Assembly: GCF_900177795.1 (NCBI RefSeq)
Contig: NZ_FXWJ01000001.1
Location: 930,001 to 994,000, forward strand
Source of the DNA: Plantibacter elymi (nom. nud.)
Lineage (GTDB): Bacteria > Actinomycetota > Actinomycetes > Actinomycetales > Microbacteriaceae
Reading direction: 5' to 3'
Length of the DNA: 64,000 bases
The notes beneath the pieces were generated by a model. It was given only the letters and a program-made list of their open reading frames with translations, had not been told where the DNA came from and made no database searches. Positions 54,097 through 59,448 of this stretch are shown in pieces. A program made the translations under genes and the position numbers. The stretch's first letter is position 1, and each line of letters opens with the position of its first letter.

Positions 54097-54942
54097 CTAC
54101 CCCCAGCGGCGCTTGATCCAGCGGTCGAGGACACCGACGAGCGCATCGGTGATCGCGCCGAGCAGCGCGAGCACGATGATGACGAAGAAGATGCGGTCGA
54201 CCCGGCCGTTGTTCTGCGAGTCCACCAGGCGGAATCCGAGTCCCATGGACGAGGCGATGAGCTCCGCCGCCACGAGGAACAGCCACGACTGCGCCAGCGC
54301 GAGCCGGAGGCCGGAGACGACCGAGGGCGTCACGGCGGGCAGCTGCACCGTCCGGAACAATGCGACACCGTTCAGGCCGAACGCGCGGCCGGCCTCGACC
54401 AGGTGCTTGTCGACGTGGCGGAGCGCGGCGGAGACCGTCGTGTACACCGGGAAGAACGCGCCGATCGCGATGAGCGTGATCTTCGACTCCTCACCGATCT
54501 TCAACCAGAGGATGAGCAGCGGGACCCACGCGAGCGACGGGACGGCCCGGATCGCCGCGAAGGTCGTCGACAGCAGGATGTCGCCGAGGCGTGAGAGCCC
54601 CACGACCGCGCCGAGGACGAGACCGAGCACGGCACCGATGAGGAACCCGATGAGGACGCGCTGCACCGAGATGGCGACGTCCTGCTGCAGCCAGCCGCGC
54701 TGCGCGAGATCCACGCCGGCCGCCCAGACCTCCGCGGGTGCCGGGAGTTGCGAGGCCGGCACGAGGCCGAACGCGGTGACGAGCTGCCAGGCCCCGAGGA
54801 TGACGACGGGGACGAGGAAGCCGCCGAGGACGACGACGATCCTGCGGGACCCGAGGACGGCGCGCGCTTCGCGGCCGGACTGGGTCGCCTGGGCACCCGC
54901 GAGACCTGCGGTCGGGGTGCCGAGTCCGGGTTGGTCGCTCAC
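54097..54942 (-). CDS. Sulfonate/nitrate/taurine-type ABC permease
   Basis: A 281-residue inner membrane protein with six helices. The binding-protein-dependent permease loop (EAA-like) is in EAGRAFGLNGVALFRTVQLPAVTPSVVSGLRLALAQSWLFLVAAELI, typical of SsuC/TauC. ATG-less start GTG 54942 has GAGAGG upstream. It is last of ATPase, binding protein, permease on the minus strand, and is separated from the binding-protein gene by a repeat cluster (54972-55062). Import of aliphatic sulfonates or similar organosulfur compounds is likely, not proven. Confidence 0.9.
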   Translation of the reverse strand: MSDQPGLGTPTAGLAGAQATQSGREARAVLGSRRIVVVLGGFLVPVVILGAWQLVTAFGLVPASQLPAPAEVWAAGVDLAQRGWLQQDVAISVQRVLIGFLIGAVLGLVLGAVVGLSRLGDILLSTTFAAIRAVPSLAWVPLLILWLKIGEESKITLIAIGAFFPVYTTVSAALRHVDKHLVEAGRAFGLNGVALFRTVQLPAVTPSVVSGLRLALAQSWLFLVAAELIASSMGLGFRLVDSQNNGRVDRIFFVIIVLALLGAITDALVGVLDRWIKRRWG

Positions 54943-54971
54943 GGGTTCCTCTCGGGACGGTTCATCGGGTG

Positions 54972-55062
54972 GCCCTTCGACAAGCTCAGGGACCGGGGTT
55001 GGGCTTCAGGGGCCGGGTTGGGCTTCAGGGACCGGGGTTGGGCTTCAGGGACCGGGTGGGAA
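54972..55062. repeat. Repeat cluster between binding-protein and permease genes
   Basis: One full unit GCCCTTCGACAAGCTCAGGGACC (54972-54994) is followed by three degenerate tandem copies of a GGGCTTCAGGGACCGGGGTT-like word up to 55062. It interrupts the sulfonate-type ABC operon and fills the 130-base gap, which is otherwise empty apart from the permease ribosome site. Confidence 0.8.
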
Positions 55063-55072
55063 TGGCGCCGGA

Positions 55073-56134
55073 CTACTTCGCGCCGATGGCGGACGGGTCC
55101 GCGTCGTCCACGAAGCTCGGATTGAAGAGGTCGGCCAGGGCGTCGTCGACCTTGTCCTGCGACGACACGTCGCCGGACTCCACGAAGATCGGGCCGATGA
55201 TCGACAGGACCTGCTCCTGCGCCTTGCCCGGGGCCGGGTCGACGTCGAGGTTCGAGCGCTCCGTGATCACCTTCGTCGCCACGGCGAGGTCGAGGCCCGC
55301 GGCGTCCGCGAGGATCTGCGCCGTCTCGTCGGGGTTCGACGCAGCCCATTCACGAGCGTGCTCGTAGGCGTTCACGACGGTCTGCGCGACGTCAGGACGC
55401 TCGTCGATGAAGGACTCGGTCGCGGCCAGGATGCCGTAGCTGTTGAAGTCGACGTTGCGGTAGATGAGCTTCGCGCCCGCCTCCTCGGCGCCGGCCATGA
55501 TCGGGTCGAGACCGGCCCACGCGTCGACGGAACCGTTCTGCAGGGCCGCCCAGCCGTCGGCGTGCTGGAGGTTCTCGATCGTGACGTCTGAGGCGGACAG
55601 ACCGGCCTCCTCCAGTGCCTGCAGGAGGAAGAAGTAGGGGTCGGTGCCCTTCGTCGCGGCGACCTTCTTGCCCTTGAGCTCGGCGACGTCCGTGATCGTC
55701 GATCCCTGGCCGACGACGATCGCCGACCACTCGGGCTGCGAGAAGACGTCGATCGCCTGGATGGCCGATCCGTTCGCCCGGTTCAGGAGCGCGGCGGACC
55801 CGGCGGTGGACCCGACGTCGATCGCGTCGGCCCGCAGTGCCTCGTTGGCCTTGTTGGAGCCGGCCGACTGGACCCAGTTGACGGTGATGTCCTGGTCGTC
55901 GAGTGCGTCCTCGAGCCAGCCCTGGTCCTTGATGATGAGCGAGAGCGGGTTGTAGGTCGCGAAGTCGATGTTGAGCGTGCCGCCCTCGGTGGTGCCGGCG
56001 GTGCTGTCGCCGCCGGCCGCAGGAGCGTTCTCGCCCGCGACGCAGCCGCTGAGGAGGAGCGCTGCGGCGGCGGTCGCGGCGACGAGGGCCGCGCGCCCGG
56101 CGCGGGAGGTGGTGAAGCGGCGTCGTGAGGTCAT
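55073..56134 (-). CDS. Sulfonate-type ABC transporter substrate-binding lipoprotein
   Basis: A 353-residue lipoprotein. The signal has twin-Arg-like basics (SRRRF), a hydrophobic stretch and lipobox LSGC near residue 31. The mature protein has NIDFATYNPLSLIIKDQGWLEDAL, then VQSAGSNKANEALRADAIDVGSTAGSAALLNRANG, the SsuA/NMT1 pattern. DPYFFLLQALEEAGLSASDVTIENLQHADGWAALQNGSVDAWAGLDP follows. It binds an alkanesulfonate-like substrate. It lies 55 bases after the ATPase gene and before the permease. Confidence 0.9.
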   Translation of the reverse strand: MTSRRRFTTSRAGRAALVAATAAAALLLSGCVAGENAPAAGGDSTAGTTEGGTLNIDFATYNPLSLIIKDQGWLEDALDDQDITVNWVQSAGSNKANEALRADAIDVGSTAGSAALLNRANGSAIQAIDVFSQPEWSAIVVGQGSTITDVAELKGKKVAATKGTDPYFFLLQALEEAGLSASDVTIENLQHADGWAALQNGSVDAWAGLDPIMAGAEEAGAKLIYRNVDFNSYGILAATESFIDERPDVAQTVVNAYEHAREWAASNPDETAQILADAAGLDLAVATKVITERSNLDVDPAPGKAQEQVLSIIGPIFVESGDVSSQDKVDDALADLFNPSFVDDADPSAIGAK

Positions 56135-56188
56135 GCGTTGGTCCTTGCTGTGGATCGGTGCGGGATGACGGCGGAGGTGGTGGGTGGC

Positions 56189-57097
56189 TCAGTACGGGAA
56201 GTGCGGGATGGACGGCAGCCGTTGGTCGCCTCGGGCGAGACCGTGGCGGTCGATGCCGAGTCCGTCGAGGAGACGGCCGCGCAGCTCGGCGAGCTCTGCC
56301 GACCCGCGGTCGCGCGGGCGGTTGCCGGGGACGGTCACGGTCTGGGCGATGGTCGAACCGGGGTGTCCCTCCTCGCGACCCAGGAGGATGACCCGGTCGG
56401 CGAGCTGGAGGGCCTCGTCGACGTCGTGCGTCACGAGCAGGATGGTGGTGGGTGCGGCGAGGTGGATGGCGAGCAGCAGGTCCTGCATCTTCAGCCGGGT
56501 GAGGGCGTCGAGGGCGCCGAACGGCTCGTCGAGGAGCAGGACGCCCGGCCGGCGGGCGAGGGCCCTGGCGAGCGAGGCGCGTTGCGCCATGCCGCCGGAG
56601 ACCTCGCGTGGGCGGTGCTCGGCGAAGTCCGCGAGCCCGACGAGTTCGAGCAGCTCGGCGACGCGGGCACGCCCTTCGGCCGCGGGTGTCCGCTTGGGCA
56701 GACCGAGTGCGACGTTCGCCGCGATCGTGCGCCAGGGGAGGAGTCGAGGCTCCTGGAAGCCGAAGGCCGTGCGCGGGTCGATGCCGGCGACGGGTGTGCC
56801 GTCGATGAGCACGGAGCCGGCGGTCGGGTGGTCGAGACCGGCCGCGATCCGCAGCAGCGTGGACTTGCCGCAGCCGCTCGTACCGAGGATCGCCACGACC
56901 TCGCCGGCCTCGGCGGTGATCGTGACGTCGCGCAGCACGGGCCGCGGGGCGTCGGCGCGTTTGCCGGCGCCGCTCGCGAAGGTGCGGCCGACCCCGGCGA
57001 ACGCGACCGTGGAGGCACGATTCGCCGAGCCGACGGGGACGGCGTCGCGGGTGACCGGCGAGCTCGCGGCGAGCGGGCTTGGGGCAGCGTTCGTCAT
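56189..57097 (-). CDS. Sulfonate/nitrate/taurine-type ABC ATP-binding protein
   Basis: A 302-residue ATPase. Walker A GTSGCGKSTLLRIAAGL is near residue 72, signature VSGGMAQRASLARALARRPGVLLLDEPFGALD. A Q-loop in FGFQEPRLLPWRTIAANV is typical of SsuB/TauB. An N-terminal ~45-residue extension precedes the domain, and the C-terminal tail extends to HFPY. A TAGCAT box ~33 bases upstream of the ATG fits a promoter on the minus strand. It is the first gene of the three-gene operon. The TetR gene 131 bases upstream on the same strand may or may not regulate it. Confidence 0.9.
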   Translation of the reverse strand: MTNAAPSPLAASSPVTRDAVPVGSANRASTVAFAGVGRTFASGAGKRADAPRPVLRDVTITAEAGEVVAILGTSGCGKSTLLRIAAGLDHPTAGSVLIDGTPVAGIDPRTAFGFQEPRLLPWRTIAANVALGLPKRTPAAEGRARVAELLELVGLADFAEHRPREVSGGMAQRASLARALARRPGVLLLDEPFGALDALTRLKMQDLLLAIHLAAPTTILLVTHDVDEALQLADRVILLGREEGHPGSTIAQTVTVPGNRPRDRGSAELAELRGRLLDGLGIDRHGLARGDQRLPSIPHFPY

Positions 57098-57228: not shown

Positions 57229-57810
57229 CTACCAGCTGCCGACCTGCGTGAGGGCGACGTCGAGGATGGCGACGGCCTCCTCCCGGTTGACCCGGGCGAG
57301 CAGCAGTGCGCTGACCGACAACGACGTGAGCTGCCGGGCGGCCGCGGCGAGTTCGTCCGCGTCCGCCTCGGGACGGGCGAGGGCGAGGGCGTCCGAGACC
57401 GCGGTCGTGAGCTCGGCACGGTAGCCGTCGACGACCTCGCGCAGTGCATCGTCGTGGGCCGCGAGTCCGGCCGCGCTGTTGAGGAGGAGGCAACCGCGGC
57501 GGGGGGAGTCGTCGGGCAGGGTCGCGATGACCGTCTGCACGCCGGAGAAGTAGGTGGTGAGCCCGGCTCTGCCGTCCGTCGCCCGCGCGAGGACCGAGAG
57601 GCGCGGTCGGATGACGGTGTCGAGGTAGTCCTGCACGGCGGCGTCGAACAGCCCGCGCTTGCTGTCGAAGGCGTGGTAGAGGCTCGACCGCCGCAGACCG
57701 GTGGCCGCTTCGAGGTCGGCGAGCGAGGTCGCCTCGTACCCGCGGTCCCAGAAGACGTCGCGCGCCGCCTGGACGACGGCGACGGTGTCGAACTCCTGCG
57801 TGCGTCCCAT
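57229..57810 (-). CDS. TetR-family transcriptional regulator
   Basis: A 193-residue regulator. The N-terminal HTH reads AARDVFWDRGYEATSLADLEAATGLRRSSLYHAFDSKRGLFDAAV (about 14-58). The C-terminal ligand domain includes RGCLLLNSAAGLA, as in TetR_C_33-type or NemR-like proteins. It is divergent from the DUF1304 gene, and the intergenic region holds a 41-base dyad (57855-57895) that overlaps the + strand -10. It probably represses itself and DUF1304-oxidoreductase. The ligand may be an electrophile or quinone, judged only from the oxidoreductase. Confidence 0.9.
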   Translation of the reverse strand: MGRTQEFDTVAVVQAARDVFWDRGYEATSLADLEAATGLRRSSLYHAFDSKRGLFDAAVQDYLDTVIRPRLSVLARATDGRAGLTTYFSGVQTVIATLPDDSPRRGCLLLNSAAGLAAHDDALREVVDGYRAELTTAVSDALALARPEADADELAAAARQLTSLSVSALLLARVNREEAVAILDVALTQVGSW

Positions 57811-57851
57811 GGGTGCCTCCTCTGGCTCGGCCGGCCCTCCGGACAGGCGGG

Positions 57852-57880
57852 TTGTGTACCGAGCGTTCTACTATTATAGT
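57852..57880 (+). promoter_or_regulatory. Promoter of the DUF1304-oxidoreductase genes
   Basis: TTGTGT (57852-57857) and TATAGT (57875-57880) are spaced by 17 bases. The -10 lies inside the central arm of the 41-base dyad. On the opposite strand TATAAT (57873-57878) could serve the tetR gene, although its -35 is unclear. Confidence 0.65.
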
Positions 57881-57895
57881 AGACCCATCGGTACA
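57855..57895. promoter_or_regulatory. 41-bp double dyad operator between tetR and DUF1304
   Basis: Outer arms TGTACCGA (57855-57862) and TCGGTACA (57888-57895) flank a 17-base palindrome TCTACTATTATAGTAGA (57867-57883), all centred on base 57875. The outer arms match perfectly, with 4-base spacers. It is AT-rich in the middle of GC-rich DNA. This is a strong candidate binding site for the divergent TetR regulator, perhaps two dimers. Confidence 0.8.
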
Positions 57896-57947
57896 GAATG
57901 TCGCTCCGCCCGGACGACTCGACGCCGATCTCCCGGAAGGCCCGCCC

Positions 57948-58334
57948 ATGCTCGTCGTCAGTCTCGTCCTCGTCGGCATCGCCGCCCTCCTGCACGTCTA
58001 CATCTTCGTGCTCGAGTCGCTGCGCTGGACCGAGCCGGCCACCCGCAAGACCTTCGGCACCTCGGAGCTCGAGGCCGAGACCACCCGCGGCCTCGCGTAC
58101 AACCAGGGGTTCTACAACCTGTTCCTCGCGATCGGCACCATCGTCGGCATCGTCTTCCTCATCACCGGCTCGACCGGTATCGGCGCGGCCCTCATCTTCG
58201 CCTCGGCGGGTTCGATGCTCCTCGCCTCGCTCGTCCTCATCACCTCGGACCGCACGAAGGCCCGCGCCGCGATCGTCCAGGGGACCACCCCGTTGCTCGG
58301 ACTCATCGCGCTCGTCATCGCACTGGCCGTCTGA
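57948..58334 (+). CDS. DUF1304 family membrane protein
   Basis: A 128-residue protein with four helices (about 4-24, 52-72, 76-96 and 108-126). The first helix with VYIFVLESLRWTEPATRKTFG and the segment RGLAYNQGFYNLFLAIG are DUF1304 signatures. The function is unknown. The ATG at 57948 is preferred to in-frame upstream codons because these precede or lie within the operator region. It is followed after 100 bases by the oxidoreductase gene, likely in the same TetR-controlled unit. Confidence 0.87.
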   Translation: MLVVSLVLVGIAALLHVYIFVLESLRWTEPATRKTFGTSELEAETTRGLAYNQGFYNLFLAIGTIVGIVFLITGSTGIGAALIFASAGSMLLASLVLITSDRTKARAAIVQGTTPLLGLIALVIALAV

Positions 58335-58434
58335 CCCCTCCGCGACGCCCCAGGCGTCACCCCGTCCGCAACCCGACGACGTGCTGCGCCCACCCACCGA
58401 AGCATCGAATCACCGCACCAAGGAAAGGCACCAC

Positions 58435-59448
58435 ATGAACACCCCCGCGCTCAGCACCCAGATCCAGCTCGTCTCGCGACCGGTCGGCTGGCCGACCGAG
58501 TCCGACTTCCGGACCGTCTCCGTCGAACTCCCGGAGCTCGCGCCGGGTCAGCTCCGGGTCCAGAACCTCTTCCTCTCCGTCGACCCCTACATGCGCGGCC
58601 GCATGAACGACGCCCGCTCCTACGTCGCGCCGTACCAGCTCGGTGAGACCATGACCGGCGGAGCCATCGGCCGGGTCGTCGAGTCGGCCGCCGAGGGCTT
58701 CTCCGTCGGCGACGTCGTCCTGCACCAGTTCGGCTGGCGCGACCTCGTCCAGGAGGACGCCAGCGGGTTCCGCGTCGTCCCTGAGCTCCCCGGCGTCCCG
58801 CTGTCCGCCTACCTCGGCGTCCTCGGCATGACGGCCCTCACCGCGTACGTCGGTCTGCTCGAGGTCGCCAAGTTCCGCGAGGGCGACACGGTGTTCGTCT
58901 CCGGTGCGGCAGGTGCCGTCGGCACGATGGTCGGCCAGATCGCCCGTCTCAAGGGCGCGAAGCGCGTCATCGGTTCGGCCGGATCGGCTGAGAAGGTCGC
59001 CCTGCTGACGGAGAAGTACGGCTACGACGCCGCGTTCAACTACAAGGACGGCCCCGTCACCGAGCAGCTCGCGGCCGCGGCACCCGACGGCATCGACGTC
59101 TACTTCGACAACGTCGGCGGCGAGCACCTCGAAGCGGCGATCGACGCCTTCAACGACGGCGGACGCGCAGCGCTCTGCGGCGTCATCTCGCAGATCAACG
59201 ACACCGAGCGTGCCGAGGGTCCCCGCAACCTGTCGAACATCGTGACCCGGGGGCTCACCCTCACGGGCTTCACCGTCGGCAACTACACGCAGCACTTCCC
59301 GGCGTTCTCGGCTGAGATGGGCGCCTGGTTGCAGAACGGCGACGTCGTCTTCGACGAGACCGTCTACGAGGGCCTCGACCACACGCTCGACGCGTTCCTC
59401 GCCCTCATGCGCGGCGCCAACACCGGGAAGATGGTCGTCAAGCTCTGA
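58435..59448 (+). CDS. NADPH-dependent oxidoreductase of the PTGR/CurA type
   Basis: A 337-residue medium-chain reductase. The N-terminus ALSTQIQLVSRPVGWPTESDFRTVSVELPELAPGQLRVQNLFLSVDPYMRGRMN is typical of leukotriene B4 dehydrogenase/CurA enzymes. The Rossmann domain has VFVSGAAGAVGTMVGQIARLKGAKRVIGSAGS and YFDNVGGEHLEAAID. It reduces activated double bonds of enals or enones with NADPH. AAGGAAAGG lies before the ATG. A 12-bp hairpin follows the stop. It is probably transcribed with DUF1304 and induced by the TetR ligand. Confidence 0.92.
   Translation: MNTPALSTQIQLVSRPVGWPTESDFRTVSVELPELAPGQLRVQNLFLSVDPYMRGRMNDARSYVAPYQLGETMTGGAIGRVVESAAEGFSVGDVVLHQFGWRDLVQEDASGFRVVPELPGVPLSAYLGVLGMTALTAYVGLLEVAKFREGDTVFVSGAAGAVGTMVGQIARLKGAKRVIGSAGSAEKVALLTEKYGYDAAFNYKDGPVTEQLAAAAPDGIDVYFDNVGGEHLEAAIDAFNDGGRAALCGVISQINDTERAEGPRNLSNIVTRGLTLTGFTVGNYTQHFPAFSAEMGAWLQNGDVVFDETVYEGLDHTLDAFLALMRGANTGKMVVKL

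Follow-up and report, generated by a model that had tools for sequence, protein, structure and literature searches.

Within the window, by which we mean the whole 64,000-nucleotide stretch of Plantibacter elymi DNA that was analyzed, a TetR-family gene and a DUF1304 gene diverge from an intergenic gap of 137 bp, and a gene for a CurA/PTGR-like reductase lies 3' of the DUF1304 gene and is likewise divergent from tetR. The three genes are as they had been described in a sequence-only reading of the same DNA. The gap contains a dyad, and the features of the locus are as follows.

57229-57810, - strand: TetR-family regulator, 193 aa (TetR_N PF00440, E 2.7e-13, 49.9 bits against a cut-off of 24)
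57852-57857, + strand: -35-like TTGTGT in the DUF1304/CurA direction, overlapping the outer edge of operator 1
57855-57870, + strand: putative operator 1, TGTACCGAGCGTTCTA (TAGAACGCTCGGTACA on the - strand), 16.4 bits, 2 mismatches to the 16-mer pattern TGNAMCGATCGKTNCA
57870-57878, - strand: candidate tetR -10 region, either TATAAT (57878-57873) or, by the rule seen in relatives, AATAGT (57875-57870)
57875-57880, + strand: -10-like TATAGT in the DUF1304/CurA direction, its last T being the first base of operator 2
57880-57895, + strand: putative operator 2, TAGACCCATCGGTACA, 13.8 bits, 2 mismatches to the 16-mer pattern
57898-57893, - strand: -35-like TTCTGT in the tetR direction, read from the sequence
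57948-58334, + strand: DUF1304 protein, 128 aa (PF06993, 113.2 bits against a cut-off of 26.9)
58435-59448, + strand: CurA/PTGR-like NADPH-dependent double-bond reductase, 337 aa (ADH_N_2 PF16884, E 1.2e-38)

A row of probable ABC transporter genes occupies 54097-57097 on the - strand, with an ATPase recognized by Pfam and a permease and a lipoprotein-like binding protein recognized by eye. Between the permease-like and binding-protein-like frames of this probable transporter locus sits a tandem array (54986-55056) of a 20-bp GC-rich unit, TCAGGGACCGGGGTTGGGCT, present in 3.6 copies with 92% matches.

The dyad had been described as a single element symmetric over 41 bases about position 57875. 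This symmetry is real: TGTACCGA-N4-TCTACTATTATAGTAGA-N4-TCGGTACA spans 57855-57895 on the + strand, is centered at 57875 and has 17 of 20 base pairs complementary; the start given for it earlier, 57852, is the first base of the proposed -35 and lies outside the dyad. First-order Markov resamplings of the window (n = 20) reached at most 15 or 16 of 20 pairs. The raw symmetry is nevertheless only mildly unusual, since four other places in the window (27480, 52464, 12125, and 7833), all GC-rich and hairpin-like, score 17-18 of 20 pairs; these four are perhaps terminators. The 16-mer pattern was found in the window without enrichment, with 8 matches at up to three mismatches against 7.6 expected. 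It is conservation across genera that takes the dyad beyond chance, helped by its composition (44% GC against 70% for the window) and by its place between divergent genes. Absence of the dyad upstream of orthologous gene pairs, which the sequence-only reading had named as a refutation, was checked for, and the dyad was kept in all six same-genus genomes of the family search, with 16-17 of 20 pairs.

Relatives were drawn from two overlapping sets which share some genomes. A family search of 299 genomes found the TetR protein in 49 at E ≤ 1e-25, and 48 of these loci were analyzed after one truncated match (G176) had been left out. From a scan of named genomes the best 80 of 527 relatives were kept, so that this set represents the closest relatives and not a random draw; its top three members are Plantibacter, and one member is a metagenome bin titled Proteobacteria. 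A phylum search at E 1e-35 found the protein in at least 4 of 396 genomes, the window's own included. Because few candidates per genome were scored (8, up to 11), the figures of 49 of 299 and 4 of 396 are lower bounds. The cysteine-bearing TetR subfamily that these sequences define is present in several actinobacterial families.

Comparison of these loci led us to revise the predicted functional unit to a 16-bp TetR-type dyad present twice, rather than one 41-bp operator. The two putative operators lie 25 bp apart center to center with 9 bp between them. Refinement over the family loci gave a palindromic motif with the consensus TGAAACGATCGTTTCA (18.9 bits). A site was present in 48 of 48 family loci (best site per locus at least 14.5 bits) and two sites in 27 of the 48 at a 7-bit threshold, although the count of 48 is partly circular because the motif was trained on 44 of these loci with the window's own sites among the seeds. 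At a threshold of 9.4 bits, the 99th percentile of shuffled regions, all 80 named loci (the 80 best of 527 relatives) had a site and 64 had two or more. The non-circular test of the motif is provided by 34 held-out loci that by record title lie outside the Microbacteriaceae, which represent Rhodococcus, Prescottella, Gordonia, Oerskovia, Sanguibacter, Cellulomonas, and others, and include three metagenome bins of uncertain placement (two Actinomycetes/Actinomycetota, one Proteobacteria). All 34 carried a site, the weakest best score being 16.7 bits and the median 20.9, and at least two sites were present in 24; control stretches inside tetR reached at most 9.4 bits with a median of -0.7.

The window's two sites, at 13.8 and 16.4 bits, are among the weaker ones. 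When regions of about 3 kb surrounding 14 further TetR-like places in the same genome were scored (16 loci, two places having been fetched twice), the best values ran from 0.4 to 14.3 bits, so that a single site with the low score of operator 2 would be unconvincing on its own. Across the genome the 16-mer occurred at 32 places with up to two mismatches, compared with 9 for a reversed-pattern control. Two of the 32 are in this locus and no other two are close together; of the remaining 30 places, 10 were inspected, of which 7 fell within long high-GC3 reading frames and 3 outside. A regulon beyond the locus was considered and not adopted, the paired arrangement occurring once only among the genome's pattern matches, which falls short of proving a single-target regulator. 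About 100 bp before the matched stretch of another TetR-like gene in the same genome (L007 position 1396, the same place as L138 position 1399) stands a sequence weakly related to the motif, TATACCGATCTGTTTA (11.6 bits).

Spacing between sites was measured in 115 distinct upstream regions out of 128, identical ones alone having been removed. Two sites were present in 79 regions, three in 2 and one in 34; thus at least two sites occurred in 81 of 115, and a pair is dispensable, given the 34 regions with a single site. Among the 83 neighboring pairs a spacing of 24 bp was observed in 48, 25 bp in 8 and 26 bp in 4, giving 24-26 bp in 60 of 83, and six of the eight 25-bp pairs came from the window's genus. 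The other spacings were 40 bp (10 pairs), 35 bp (4), 39 bp (2), and 32 bp (2), with 22, 27, 29, 31, and 33 bp seen once each. Three motif sites spaced 24 and 32 bp apart stand upstream of tetR in two loci, L073 and L082.

These spacings bear on whether the 41-bp dyad could itself be the functional unit, a single operator on which two dimers bind cooperatively in a rigid mirror-symmetric arrangement, with distinct roles for outer and inner half-sites. Its retention in six genomes of the genus speaks for such a unit, as does a comparison of half-sites in 23 family pairs (four near-identical same-genus loci having been left out of 27), in which the mirror pairing of outer with outer and inner with inner half-sites agreed at 285 of 368 positions, against 242 for the within-site and 240 for the direct pairing. 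None of 20,000 permutations reached this mirror excess, and for positions 4-8 alone the fraction was 0.00125. When the named set was averaged over 14 genus labels (one of them a metagenome bin), however, mirror, within-site, and direct pairings agreed at 11.3, 10.2, and 11.1 of 16 positions, and the 26 pairs from outside the Microbacteriaceae gave 11.6, 10.5, and 11.5. A rigid unit also sits poorly with spacings of 24, 25, 26, 35, and 40 bp, which alter the helical face, and with the 34 of 115 loci in which one site stands alone. As a general description the 41-bp unit was therefore dropped after the genus-collapsed test, even though the family set had favored it, and we regard it as unlikely. 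Mirror symmetry is strong in some lineages, the window's included, and the genus-collapsed test lends its generality no support. Of the 41-bp operator for TetR that had been proposed, the comparison thus retains a TetR operator region serving both directions, and replaces the unit with a 16-bp dyad that occurs twice at varying spacing.

The promoter elements described in the sequence-only reading, TTGTGT-17-TATAGT on the + strand and an overlapping TATAAT on the other, are present as stated. The two -10 hexamers overlap on opposite strands (TATAGT at 57875-57880 and TATAAT at 57878-57873). The + strand combination matches the consensus at 8 of 12 positions (3 + 5), and a strict sigma-70 scan found a promoter in neither direction here. 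The predicted promoter in the tetR direction is poor, combining the -35 TTCTGT with a -10 AATAGT (4 of 6) or having TATAAT without a -35, and would be weaker than the one on the + strand. In relatives with the 24-bp spacing, agreement with TATAAT was scored for the hexamer whose last base is also the first base of the downstream operator; it was 4.77 of 6 positions in the tetR direction and 4.79 in the opposite one, compared with a background of 1.16, the position tested having been picked after the alignments had been viewed. The corresponding matches were 4.50 and 4.70 in the 40-bp class, 3.25 and 5.00 in the 25-bp class to which the window belongs, and uneven (1.0 to 5.0) in the classes from 27 to 35 bp. 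In many relatives a TTG directly adjoins the outer edge of the operator. While the operator-to-operator distance changes the helical face between spacing classes, it is the registration of promoter to operator, rather than this distance, that appears to be kept. If a distance of 7 bp from -10 to start is assumed, the two starts would lie 23 bp apart in the 24-bp class and 21 or 24 bp apart in the window; the extracts of PMC12825309 give 18, 10, and 23 bp as common distances between start sites at bidirectional promoters.

With respect to the genes facing tetR, the reductase scored 345 bits against the CurA model NF058644, below its cut-off of 440, and it is for this reason called CurA-like only. 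Solved structures related to it are double-bond and prostaglandin reductases. In the DNA fetched for the 128 loci, a CurA-like gene was found in at least 108 and a DUF1304 gene in at least 66; both occurred in 49 and CurA without DUF1304 in 59, while 17 loci had DUF1304 but no CurA-like gene and 3 lacked both. These partner counts are lower bounds because the flanks differ in length (1.5 kb at most for 30 loci). Ten of the 20 CurA-less loci were read, and seven had another reductase of the same superfamily while none was found among the listed reading frames of the other three; for two of these substitutes, which were scanned, the closest models were quinone-reductase models, with scores below the cut-offs. 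The distribution suggests that the TetR protein usually targets a reductase and that DUF1304 is a companion present in some loci only. The earlier pairing of DUF1304 with the reductase stands to the extent that both face tetR here, and does not extend to the 59 of 128 loci in which CurA was found without DUF1304 in the fetched DNA.

In the AlphaFold model of the DUF1304 protein (mean pLDDT 96.7) four long, hydrophobic helices are packed into a bundle; the protein is the only match in the genome at E 0.001. The electrophile response with a membrane component that had been suggested is plausible by comparison, the membrane component consisting of predicted helices placed in the membrane by their hydrophobic sequence. 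When the DUF1304 model was compared with known folds, Foldseek found nothing below E 0.001. VIA-align, applied to Foldseek's candidates only, ranked NACHO/TMEM35A first (Z 10.1, 108 aligned, rmsd 3.3), but such scores are within reach of unrelated helical bundles, and the comparison is too uninformative to suggest a function. The passages naming DUF1304 in the literature extracts covered are lines in expression tables; a response to cinnamon oil was set aside, the DUF1304 line in that extract belonging to an imipenem comparison (log2 0.62).

The TetR protein was modeled with a mean pLDDT of 91.8 (AlphaFold) as an all-helical two-domain fold, and its Foldseek matches are TetR proteins. The recognition-helix residues R41, S42, S43, and Y45 were kept in at least 127 of 128 loci, as expected if all of these proteins bind one motif. 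Cys107 is the sole cysteine of the window's protein and was kept in 128 of 128 loci. It aligns with the GCL cysteine of CifR, which PDB titles also number Cys107 and which is a serine (C107S) in one deposited construct. An invariant, sole cysteine aligned with Cys107 of CifR favors a thiol-reactive inducer, and we consider a cysteine-sensing step reasonably likely. A GC-L cysteine is also found in other TetR proteins, e.g., NemR, so that a conserved cysteine does not name the inducer.

We propose that the element controls both arms of a divergent TetR/(DUF1304-)CurA-like reductase locus, and hold the operator and promoter part of this proposal to be probable. The proposal draws on what the sequence shows, namely both sites and how widely they are conserved, the arrangement of the -10 hexamers, the invariant Cys107, and the partner genes; we infer the binding, the repression, the inducer chemistry, the enzyme substrate, and the polymerase competition. 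Two TetR dimers, one on each 16-bp operator, would flank the overlapping -10 hexamers and screen them from either side, and each operator would overlie one promoter at its -35 edge and spacer and the opposite promoter at its start-site region. With the operators covering both promoters, occupied sites would shut both directions, giving auto-repression as well as repression of the target. A thiol-reactive or electrophilic compound may then modify Cys107 and cause TetR to leave the DNA, upon which the reductase (with DUF1304) would be made and would reduce the activated double bond of the compound. The shared -10 would be held by RNA polymerase in one orientation at a time. Control of both directions by the same TetR, as suggested earlier, is supported by the comparison in the form of a predicted operator region serving both.

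Two other explanations were weighed against this proposal. One keeps the TetR-bound sites and differs in the sensing step alone, with a non-covalent inducer (e.g., a lipid, terpenoid, or phenolic) and a structural role for Cys107. Most TetR proteins do use reversible ligands, many enones could be substrates of the partner reductase, and the place of CurA is taken in some loci by a different reductase from its superfamily, all of which would fit such an inducer; the retention of Cys107 in 128 of 128 loci as the sole cysteine, at a position that is kept or mutated in CifR constructs, and the precedent of CurR for thiol reagents (taken from a paper title) count against it, and we view it as possible though short of probable. 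The other explanation makes the adjacency to tetR incidental, the dyad serving another regulator or being a transcribed hairpin or terminator. A TetR protein does not have to bind upstream of its own gene, and the other strong dyads of the window do look like hairpins. Yet the motif accompanies the TetR orthologue throughout both sets (48 of 48 and 80 of 80 loci) while the downstream partners vary, no terminator-like site was found in 57700-58500, and most of the dyad would escape transcription because it overlaps the -10 hexamers; we consider an incidental dyad highly improbable.

Within the proposed TetR control region, a further and more tentative suggestion is that this TetR subfamily may have evolved an operator grammar on the bidirectional promoter itself, in which the edges of the operators also serve as promoter parts, namely the -35 edge for one direction and the final T of the -10 for the other. 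If true, two 16-bp sites separated by 24-26 bp would lock both polymerase orientations at the shared -10, release by inducer would open a promoter whose two directions compete, and the 40-bp and single-site variants would be natural uncoupled versions in which the directions could be compared. What the analysis provides is a concrete 16-bp candidate motif for a cysteine-bearing TetR subfamily tied to a CurA-like reductase, and, from the relatives, a naturally occurring series in which the site spacing around shared -10 promoters varies. Overall, the observation made in the sequence-only reading was confirmed and its interpretation found partial support, with the predicted anatomy revised to two 16-bp operators around a shared -10. 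The two-operator region would be a tidy, conserved example of an ordinary bacterial switch, probably one triggered by reactive chemicals. No description of the operator pair was found among the literature matches listed, most subscription papers lying outside their coverage, and we make no claim that it is unpublished.

Several known systems resemble the one proposed here. The TetR-family protein CurR of Pseudomonas aeruginosa reportedly regulates curA via sensing of NaOCl and N-ethylmaleimide, according to the title of a 2024 paper in Gene. As in the window, CurR (PA2196) and curA (PA2197) pair a TetR-family repressor with the gene of a CurA-type reductase. The window's protein matches the fold of PA2196 on operator DNA (4l62, TM 0.77) with 19-20% identity; it scored 26.1 bits against the CurR model NF058643, below the cut-off of 300, and is thus not a CurR equivalog. 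NemR of Escherichia coli, which senses electrophiles and hypochlorite through cysteine and lies upstream of a gene for a reductase, shares the TetR fold and is equally distant (4yze, TM 0.77, 19-20% identity). The closest solved structure is that of CifR, also from P. aeruginosa (profile 86.7 bits, TM 0.82, 32% identity), which carries a 26-bp operator DNA and the GCL-motif cysteine that aligns with Cys107. CifR controls an epoxide hydrolase locus, whereas the two genes facing the window's TetR belong to other families.

With regard to operator layout, the Tn10 tet target is an efflux pump and its operators and promoters are laid out differently from those of the window. The feature shared with Tn10 tet is the presence of two separate operators, here predicted by motif score, in a divergent region. 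In the extracts of PMC3037858, the two operators over the divergent tetR/tetA promoters each bind one dimer, both genes are repressed and there is no indication of cooperativity. DarR, according to the extracts of PMC10636190, places two dimers on one short DNA region in which one half-site is poorer than the rest. In DarR and QacR, as far as the extracts describe them, the two dimers occupy overlapping palindromes, while in the window a gap of 9 bp keeps the two 16-bp sites apart.

Bidirectional promoters in which overlapping -10 hexamers are used both ways are described in the extracts of PMC12825309, which in 2026 calls their control unknown and hardly studied; the series of spacing variants found here could therefore be useful test material. 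The same extracts report that in E. coli the TetR protein AcrR represses both directions of the bidirectional acrA/acrR promoter. Unlike acrA/acrR, the region in the window has two matched putative operators which flank the shared -10 and abut both hexamers.
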